A stretch of DNA of 64,000 bases from Butyribacter intestini. GTDB lineage: Bacteria > Bacillota > Clostridia > Lachnospirales > Lachnospiraceae. Positions 24,416-61,316 of the stretch are shown piece after piece. A program made the translations under genes and the position numbers. Every line of letters starts with the position of its first letter. Positions within the stretch are counted from its first letter, which is position 1. The stretch spans positions 1,121,699 through 1,185,698 of the forward strand of contig LLKB01000001.1 in the NCBI GenBank assembly GCA_001414325.1, in the 5' to 3' direction. The notes under the pieces were generated by a model. The model was not told where the DNA came from and made no database searches. It saw only the letters and a program-made list of their open reading frames with translations.

Positions 24416-24429
24416 GTAACGGTTCAGCC
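24416..24429. repeat. Solo end of the GTAACAGTTCAGCC element
   Basis: GTAACGGTTCAGCC differs at one base from the termini of the 182-bp element at 39123 and 61000. It lies in the spacer between the pseudogene and the deacetylase gene; the rest of an element is not recognisable. Confidence 0.5.
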
Positions 24430-29503: not shown

Positions 29504-29540
29504 GTAACAGTTCAGCCTTGCATTTCTTACATTTACAATA
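29504..29540. repeat. Fragment of the GTAACAGTTCAGCC element
   Basis: GTAACAGTTCAGCC (29504-29517) and the next 15-20 bases (TTGCATTTCTTACATT) follow the right end of the 182-bp element read in reverse. The remainder of the element is absent. It lies between the OCD operon promoter and the decayed defence genes. Confidence 0.6.
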
Positions 29541-39047: not shown

Positions 39048-39122
39048 ATAAACAACTATGTTAAGTATAATGTAATTTCACCTGATTGGCAAGTATATGT
39101 TTTTATAAAATATTATATTCAG

Positions 39123-39304
39123 GTAACAGTTCAGCCATAAAAAGTAATTGACAATACTTGAGCTTGCTCATTGTATTGTTAATTATCTTTTTATGGTAGA
39201 ATAGCCTTTCATTTATTATATGAGGTAAACATAAGCTGCTTAGCAGCGACTGACAGTTTGCTGGCAGGTTTATGAATGTAATAAATGGAAGGCTGAACTG
39301 TTAC
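39123..39304. mobile_element. 182-bp MITE-like element, copy 1
   Basis: Terminal inverted repeats GTAACAGTTCAGCC / GGCTGAACTGTTAC. The flanks ATATTCAG and ATATTTAG look like an 8-base target duplication with one change. The left half is one long imperfect hairpin (CCATAAAAA ... TTTTTATGG with the core TTGAGC-TT-GCTCA); the right half has AGCCTTTCATT pairing with AATGGAAGGCT and small hairpins GCTGCTTAGCAGC and CTGACAG...CTGGCAG. The second copy at 61000-61181 has the same length and about 85% identity. GTAA ends and 8-base duplications are typical of IS66-family elements, so it may be a non-autonomous derivative. Confidence 0.75.
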
Positions 39305-39327
39305 ATATTTAGTAACACTCCATTCTC

Positions 39328-41859: not shown

Positions 41860-41888
41860 CTTTCGGGTTGGGCTGATTTTCATCAGAG

Positions 41889-41960
41889 CAGTCTGTAGGG
41901 GAATCGAACCCCTGTTTTCGCCGTGAGAGGGCGACGTCTTAGCCGCTTGACCAACAGACC
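41889..41960 (-). tRNA. tRNA-Glu(CTC), third of three in transcript order
   Basis: 72 bases, beginning GGTCTGTTGGTCAAGCGGCT; acceptor stem GGTCTGT/ACAGACT (G-U first pair), D-loop, anticodon stem TCGCC/GGCGA with loop CTCTCAC (anticodon CTC), T-arm GGGGTTCGATTCCCC, discriminator G. CCA is not encoded. Last of three tandem copies. Confidence 0.93.
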
Positions 41961-42036
41961 ATATATTTACTTTTATCAAACATTAACATAAATCAAACCG
42001 TCATTTGATACTTTACAGCCGGCATATACACCGAAG

Positions 42037-42108
42037 CAGTCTGTAGGGGAATCGAACCCCTGTTTTCGCCGTGAGAGGGCGACGTCTTAGCCGCTTGACC
42101 AACAGACC
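42037..42108 (-). tRNA. tRNA-Glu(CTC), second of three
   Basis: Identical to the copy at 41889-41960. The spacers share TTTACTTTTATCA and CAAACCGTCATTTGATACTTTA, so the array arose by duplication of a unit of about 147 bases. Confidence 0.93.
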
Positions 42109-42181
42109 ATATATTTACTTTTATCAGATATTAACATATCAAACCGTCATTTGATACTTTATGACCGACATTACATCGGAA

Positions 42182-42253
42182 CAGTCTGTAGGGGAATCGA
42201 ACCCCTGTTTTCGCCGTGAGAGGGCGACGTCTTAGCCGCTTGACCAACAGACC
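42182..42253 (-). tRNA. tRNA-Glu(CTC), first of three
   Basis: Identical to the two downstream copies; it is promoter-proximal on the minus strand. The 260-base region upstream (42254-42514) shows no gene and should hold the promoter. Confidence 0.93.
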
Positions 42254-42514
42254 ATATTTACTTTTATCATTTACTGGCGATGACCTTTTAATCTTCCCCG
42301 TCGTGCCGACAAGCAATACTATACATCATTTAATTACAAAATGCAAGCATTTTTTTCAATTTTTTCTGTTTTTTTTCAAGACCCTCATTAATTATATATT
42401 TTTATTACCGCCAACAACATATATTTTCACCATGATAACACAGGACAGGACTACAGTCTGCCCTGTAATACTACCAGTGACACAACCATACTCTGTCCTG
42501 AAATATTTATAATA

Positions 42515-46778: not shown

Positions 46779-46792
46779 GTAACAGTTCAGCC
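46779..46792. repeat. Solo end of the GTAACAGTTCAGCC element
   Basis: A perfect copy of the 14-base terminus, followed by TTACATTATTTTAC, like the right end of the full element read in reverse. It lies between the stop of the AI-2E-family gene and the yicC promoter. Confidence 0.6.
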
Positions 46793-48393: not shown

Positions 48394-48481
48394 GTAACAG
48401 TTCAGCAAAAAAAAGATAAGTCAATAATACACGAGCTTGCTCGATGTATTATTGGCTTGTTTTTTTGGGCGGAATAGCCTT
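48394..48481. mobile_element. Half copy of the 182-bp element
   Basis: GTAACAGTTCAGC at the left end, then a hairpin with core CACGAGC-TT-GCTCGATG flanked by AATAATA/TATTATT, and the ending GGAATAGCCTT. It corresponds to the first 88 bases of the full element. The hairpin arms differ from the full copies (TGAGC/GCTCA becomes CGAGC/GCTCG; ACAATAC/GTATTGT becomes AATAATA/TATTATT) in a paired way. Confidence 0.7.
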
Positions 48482-60970: not shown

Positions 60971-60999
60971 CCTGTTTTTGGAAAATTACATTTTTATAT

Positions 61000-61181
61000 G
61001 TAACAGTTCAGCCATAAAAAATAATTGACAATACTTGAGCTTGCTCATTGTATTGTTGATTATCTTTTTATGGTAGAATAGCCTTTCATTTCTGAAATGA
61101 AATAAACCAAAGCTGCTAAGCAGCGACTGACAGCTTGCTGGCAGGTTTATGAATTGAGGAAATAAAAGGCTGAACTGTTAC
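61000..61181. mobile_element. 182-bp MITE-like element, copy 2
   Basis: Same ends and length as 39123-39304. The flanks TTTTATAT and TTTTACAT suggest an 8-base target duplication with one change. The left half is nearly identical to copy 1; the right half differs at paired positions of the stem CATTTCTGAAATGAAATAAA while keeping GCTGCTAAGCAGC and CTGACAGCTTGCTGGCAG. It lies 30 bases upstream of the GntR promoter. Confidence 0.75.
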
Positions 61182-61185
61182 TTTT

Positions 61186-61316
61186 ACATAACAACGAATG
61201 CTCAGCTCGAAAACTTCGTTTTCTCGCTGGTCGTTTCACTCATATAATTTTCCAGAAAATCATTTTCCTGCAAGCAGGCACTGCTTTTCTTTGGAAAATT
61301 GCATTCGTTGTTATGT
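61186..61316. repeat. 131-bp structured element with 16-bp terminal inverted repeats
   Basis: ACATAACAACGAATGC (61186-61201) is the exact complement of 61301-61316. Inside are two further stems: GAAAAC-TTC-GTTTTC (about 61212-61226), and AATTTTCC/GGAAAATT, the latter enclosing CCTGC-AA-GCAGG. The whole folds as a three-way junction. It abuts the spoIVA stop (61316-61318) and lies 4 bases from the 182-bp element. It may be an RNA 3' structure of spoIVA or a small mobile element. Confidence 0.6.

Follow-up and report, generated by a model that had tools for sequence, protein, structure and literature searches.

A 182-bp MITE of Butyribacter intestini and the conserved RNA-like core that it carries

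The closest described systems and the element in the window

Insertion sequences of the IS66 family are described as having ends of 20 to 30 bp which start with GTAAGCG, together with 8-bp direct repeats (PMC11946415, in the portion available). Short elements which contain no ORF and possess IS-like terminal inverted repeats are represented by MITEPsy1 and MITEPsy2 (PMC3189936, in the portion available), and Clostridiales-1 is characterized, in the relevant excerpt of its description, as probably an RNA that is neither cis-regulatory nor a switch (PMC2864571). The locus considered here lies in a 64-kb stretch of the Butyribacter intestini genome, termed the window, which contains two copies of a 182-bp element, designated copies A and B (Table 1). 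Like members of the IS66 family, this element shows 8-bp target repeats, ends starting with GTAA and a partner transposase that scores over the PF03050 cut-off. Unlike them, its ends start with GTAACAG and are common over 14 bp, it contains no coding sequence and its partner was found only in congeners. The preliminary description of this DNA had related the GTAA ends and the 8-base duplications to IS66-family elements; both features hold, the continuation GTAAGCG is absent, and the partners with PF03050 have the GTAACAG form as well. The element also differs from MITEPsy1 and MITEPsy2, which are linked to other transposase families and of which MITEPsy1 generates a 4-nt duplication; the portion of their description available to us mentions no conserved RNA core (PMC3189936). 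None of the titles retrieved from the open-licence literature describes the 182-bp element, which does not imply its absence from print.

Both copies are exactly 182 bp long and share their termini, as had been stated in the preliminary description, and both exhibit perfect 14-bp ends (GTAACAGTTCAGCC/GGCTGAACTGTTAC). The 8-base flanking duplications with one change each, also proposed there, are found at either copy, with seven of eight positions matching. In the predicted fold of copy A, the two end repeats enclose hairpin 1 and, after a linker of 5 nt, hairpin 2 (about 39203-39294); 36 of 40 copies from the same genome retain the linker sequence TATGGTAGAATAGCC. The largely hairpin nature of the element and its lack of coding capacity were likewise confirmed: minimum free energies amount to -81.6 kcal/mol for copy A (z -11.5) and -73.5 kcal/mol for copy B (z -8.9), neither equalled by any of 200 shuffles, and no ORF of at least 20 aa lies wholly inside copy A, whose edges are overlapped by four short ORFs. 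The neighbouring genes encode DegV and DUF2325 at copy A, and GntR and SpoIVA at copy B. Since both copies are opposite in strand to both neighbouring genes, read-through would yield the other strand. In a promoter scan, promoter-like sites were not above shuffles and none was located at the linker.

Several further features were observed in the window. Four solo element ends, two exact and two with one mismatch, have no partner end within it. A 127-bp palindromic stretch at 61188-61314 adjoins copy B and exhibits perfect 14-bp inverted ends (ATAACAACGAATGC) with an inner CTGCAAGCAG; it is perhaps another MITE-like element, and its ends were not seen in the other loci compared. Three consecutive tRNA-Glu (ctc) genes with equal Rfam scores are located at 41888-42254 on the minus strand.

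Table 1. Features of the 182-bp element and its solo ends in the window.
Feature	Positions	Strand	Basis
MITE copy A, 182 bp	39123..39304	+	genome search, end inspection
Copy A, left 8-base target repeat ATATTCAG	39115..39122	no strand	flank comparison
Copy A, right 8-base target repeat ATATTTAG	39305..39312	no strand	flank comparison
Copy A, left terminal inverted repeat	39123..39136	+	end match
Copy A, right terminal inverted repeat	39291..39304	-	end match
Copy A, hairpin 1, GCTTGC at tip	39134..39197	+	predicted fold of copy A
Copy A, RNA-like core inside hairpin 2 (P0, 2x2 loop, P1, three-way junction with P2 and P3)	39213..39285	+	model R1, 88 bits
MITE copy B, 182 bp	61000..61181	+	genome search, end inspection
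Copy B, left 8-base target repeat TTTTATAT	60992..60999	no strand	flank comparison
Copy B, right 8-base target repeat TTTTACAT	61182..61189	no strand	flank comparison
Copy B, RNA-like core	61090..61162	+	model R1, 84.1 bits
Probable decayed copy: end with one mismatch, then a stretch resembling hairpin 1 and containing GAGCTTGCTC; no right end seen	48394..48407	+	
Solo exact 14-base end; about 30 bases resemble the element's right side	29504..29517	+	
Solo exact 14-base end	46779..46792	+	
Solo end, one mismatch	24416..24429	+	

Copies, target repeats and the probable transposase

The mobile nature suspected in the preliminary description is borne out by a search of the 182 bases against the B. 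intestini genome. At least 40 full or near-full copies were identified (all 40 of those scored, among 227 candidates), which are 88-92% identical to copy A and are accompanied by partial and self-complementary matches. The exact 14-mer end occurs 183 times in this genome (92 and 91 by strand), as opposed to no occurrence of a control pattern. Two recognisable ends are present in all of the 40 scored copies but L019, and the 8-base flanking repeats match at seven or eight positions in 31 of these 39 (16 exactly), compared to a mean of 0.8 and a maximum of 4 in 1000 shuffles of the flank pairing. At each other repeat length k from 4 to 12, k-1 matches were seen in at most 4 of the 39 copies. Taken together, the completeness of the scored copies, the recognition of their ends and the excess of 8-base repeats over shuffled flanks exclude chance. 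Copy lengths are mostly 182-184 bp, and forms of 253-255, 101 and 88 bp have the same ends; the 8-bp repeats are exact at L068 and L074 (253-255 bp), L072 (101 bp) as well as L071 and L077 (88 bp). The core model R1, described below, detects no core in the 88- and 101-bp forms, and yields at least 93 matches in the genome at E 0.001 (150 scored among 2447 candidates).

According to crude ORF calls, 38 of 39 copies are intergenic and none lies between convergent genes. We place no weight on this result, since the scoring of copy A involved an ORF overlapping the DUF2325 gene. An orientation-dependent cis role was considered and rejected, with 10 copies lying along and 15 against two same-strand neighbours and hence no clear preference. 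Searches of plasmid and phage collections gave no match at E 0.001. The element is short and non-coding, is bounded by terminal inverted repeats and occurs in many copies within target-site duplications of a fixed length of 8 bp; it is a non-autonomous transposon (MITE). No autonomous partner was found in the same genome, and an old MITE does not need one.

Three matches to PF03050 are present in the B. intestini genome, one of them with an intact 546-aa frame. The resident IS66 element carries GTAAGCGC at both ends and shows no clear target repeat; its different ends rule it out as the driver. A matching element was detected in a congener (G008), where a 1835-bp element (L130:2141-3975) starts with GTAACAGTTCAGTC and bears the exact 14-mer at the opposite end. 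It contains one ORF of 485 aa, which matches DDE_Tnp_IS66 (PF03050) with 73.8 bits at a cut-off of 23.1, and has no target repeat. Single-ORF members of the IS66 family presumably fall under the subgroup name ISBst12. In a second congener (G018), a related ORF lies between ends of the form GTAACAGTTCAGATACCC, the second of which is located at the contig end.

Relatives of the G008 transposase occur in 25 of 397 Lachnospiraceae genomes. An end of the form GT[AT][AG]C[ATG][AG]TTCA[GC] is present at 23 of 30 loci related to this transposase (a set which includes the two overlapping pairs L216/L233 and L225/L235) vs. one of nine other-IS66 loci. The end GTAACAGTTCAGCC itself is found at seven of the nine loci with at least 60% identity (L206, L209, L210, L213, L225, L231, and L235), the other two being L233 with GTAACTATTCAGCC and L227 with none. 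Two distant complete elements, L207 and L222, are flanked by exact 8-bp repeats (GCCGGAAT and GTATTAGA), and L212 and L215 show two ends and no repeat. The earlier proposal of an IS66-driven MITE depended on the existence, somewhere in the lineage, of IS66-family transposases with the same 14-base ends, and these are present in G008 and its relatives. With such same-ended elements, sister ends and 8-bp repeats, the proposal is right for the lineage, but a cognate transposase was not found in B. intestini itself, where no homolog of the G008 transposase was detected at 1e-10. The element would have been moved in trans, via its ends, by a DDE transposase of the single-ORF IS66 type, which was detected in congeners and not in this genome.

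The conserved core and the molecule in which it folds

The core within hairpin 2 comprises 74 nt and consists of closing stems, a 2x2 internal loop and a three-way junction with two short hairpins, represented in model R1 by 74 positions, 24 pairs and 29 rows. Element positions 105-149, in the middle of hairpin 2, give a match of their own in G008, G010, G018, and G024, and in G008, G018, and G024 the core adjoins a different end, GTTACTATTCACGG or similar. Model R1 locates the core in 21 of 397 Lachnospiraceae genomes, each of a different genus and B. intestini included, and in 2 of 391 genomes of a class sample, both of them Lachnospiraceae. Both IS66-like ends, scored with up to 2 of 12 mismatches, surround the core at 14 of 27 foreign loci and at 9 of 11 loci from congeners as opposed to 6 of 190 control places, while a single such end near the core is uninformative (20 of 27 foreign vs. 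63 of 190 control). A recognised pair of ends is missing at 13 of the 27 foreign core loci. Ends combined with an 8-bp repeat of at least seven matching positions were identified at 7 of 38 core loci (three from G008 as well as L168, L181, L182, and L184) and at none of 114 controls; with so few, many foreign copies are either decayed or of unclear limits. At L168, the ends found with the 8-bp repeat form a longer repeat outside the GTTGCGATTCACGG pair. Of 39 rows, 19 show GCTTGC, the hairpin 1 tip, upstream of the core and two show it downstream. Judged from these sequence comparisons, a conserved structured module is carried between the MITE ends and, in other genera, between other IS66-like ends. 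The occurrence of such a module, RNA-like in its predicted fold, in MITEs with different ends is the surprising aspect of this family.

Core and transposase are rarely found together. No core was detected in 32 transposase loci, many of them partial (best E 0.55), and core and cognate transposase co-occur in 2 of 397 genomes (G072 and G117), where about 1.3 are expected by chance; a PF03050 match is present in 5 of 18 core-bearing genomes. Loss of repeated IS copies from draft assemblies may explain part of this scarcity.

In the model-fitted alignment, 91.4% of cells pair and two-sided changes occur in 21 of the 24 pairs. The two-sided cells number 137, compared to 41.6 (sd 4.8) after shuffling and no more than 44 in slid controls, and this covariation of a structured inner motif across genera lends support to the idea, raised in the preliminary description, of an RNA element. 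The 2x2 loop between P0 and P1 switches as a unit between GA/GA (18 of 39 rows) and AA/GC (15 rows), with one mixed and five other rows; when one row per genome is considered (26), the counts are 12, 10, one and three. Furthermore, an A.G mismatch inside P3 is kept in 14 of the 21 genomes with letters there. None of these three properties would be expected of an ordinary MITE, whose hairpins would represent palindromic filler from an ancestral element without function at the RNA level and whose likeness would be due to common descent and spread. This reading agrees with the close identity of the copies within B. intestini and with the presence of the coreless 88-bp form at L071 and L077, each of which is flanked by exact 8-bp repeats. 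It also agrees with RNAalifold, which on the first (MAFFT) alignment detects no helices other than P2 and P3 and a single two-sided pair; that alignment contains 34 two-sided cells vs. 15.9, mostly in the outer helix. We regard it as unlikely. Single cores were also folded: the three-way junction formed in five of six, the exception being L056 from B. intestini, and the L168 core folds no better than shuffles (z -0.85). In the minimum free energy folds of copy B and L056, P2 and P3 are not formed as modelled.

The strand was addressed by the ratio of G-U to A-C cells, which amounts to 31 to 13 in the 39 rows and to 18 to 6 in 26 genomes with one row each (p values of 0.01 and 0.02, which are rough owing to the relatedness of the rows). 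This excess suggests an RNA that corresponds to the strand on which hairpin 1 precedes the core. Within B. intestini, the ratio is 113 to 7 for hairpin 1, largely one inherited pattern, and 34 to 34 for hairpin 2. The latter, even count would suit a module kept as DNA, in which a hairpin or cruciform aids transposase excision or target capture. Transposition acts on DNA, palindromes are common in MITEs, and helices covary whichever molecule folds. A DNA cruciform does not, however, favour G-U over A-C, and the autonomous loci are without the module. The coreless 88-bp copies, moreover, look mobile, and their exact 8-bp repeats imply that the core is dispensable in cis, which together leave retention as DNA distinctly improbable. 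The explanation that best accommodates the observations, with a probability of roughly 0.75, is a MITE moved by an IS66-family transposase and carrying a conserved module that works as RNA. The functional strand would be the one on which hairpin 1 comes first, and the module may be kept because it helps the element persist. Against this explanation stand the chance-level co-occurrence of core and cognate transposase, the few core-bearing genomes with a PF03050 match, the missing target repeat of the G008 element, the small number of core loci with ends plus an 8-bp repeat, the foreign loci that lack a recognised pair of ends, the even count in hairpin 2, the deviating folds of copy B and L056 and the negative promoter scan at the linker. 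Our preferred guess as to its nature, put forward tentatively and with less than even odds, is a transcribed RNA with a host factor as its binding partner.

Relation to Clostridiales-1 RNA and meaning of the module

At the Rfam gathering thresholds, the window contains three tRNAs only. The 20 foreign loci gave nothing at the core, their one match being Clostridiales-1 in L182, about 960 bases off. Clostridiales-1 RNA (RF01699) is present in 112 of 200 Lachnospiraceae genomes. The Clostridiales-1 loci L136-L165 mostly possess short inverted ends (TGATACC, TGATGCC, and similar) and a capped first hairpin, as if this RNA were itself a mobile repeat. Membership of the 182-bp element in RF01699 was rejected, as copy A scores 28.3 bits, below the gathering threshold of 48, and was not reported in a search of eight loci that included it. 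That the element is nevertheless a divergent member of this family is very improbable: copy A does align over the whole length, and by eye both have end repeats and a GCUUGC-capped first hairpin, yet only the ends and hairpin 1 align while the remainder is gapped, the ends differ, a search of 30 Clostridiales-1 loci with R1 gave no match up to E 10, and B. intestini has seven RF01699 matches of its own. We read the two as separate families of similar build, alike also in being multicopy in Lachnospiraceae and unlike in their cores.

MITEs are usually viewed as two ends plus filler. If the module does work as RNA, its covariation across genera and through changes of ends would imply that MITE cargo is under selection, and RNA biologists would be provided with a defined motif that has at least 93 matches in a single genome. 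It is conceivable, although we would not call it probable, that one three-way-junction RNA module underlies a class of MITEs widespread in Lachnospiraceae, with the ends of the families in this class matched to different IS66-type transposases. The RNA would act on host factors or at the RNA level and keep the elements tolerated or active, and Clostridiales-1 would constitute a second, parallel RNA spread as a MITE. One may then ask whether orphan RNA families in gut bacteria are in some cases spread as mobile DNA.

Variants of the core were also observed. In several copies from the congener G015 (L039, L042, L045, L051, and L091), the loop of the last core hairpin is about 30 nt longer. At the foreign loci L181 and L184, both with exact 8-bp repeats, the core is reduced and exhibits one short hairpin instead of two.
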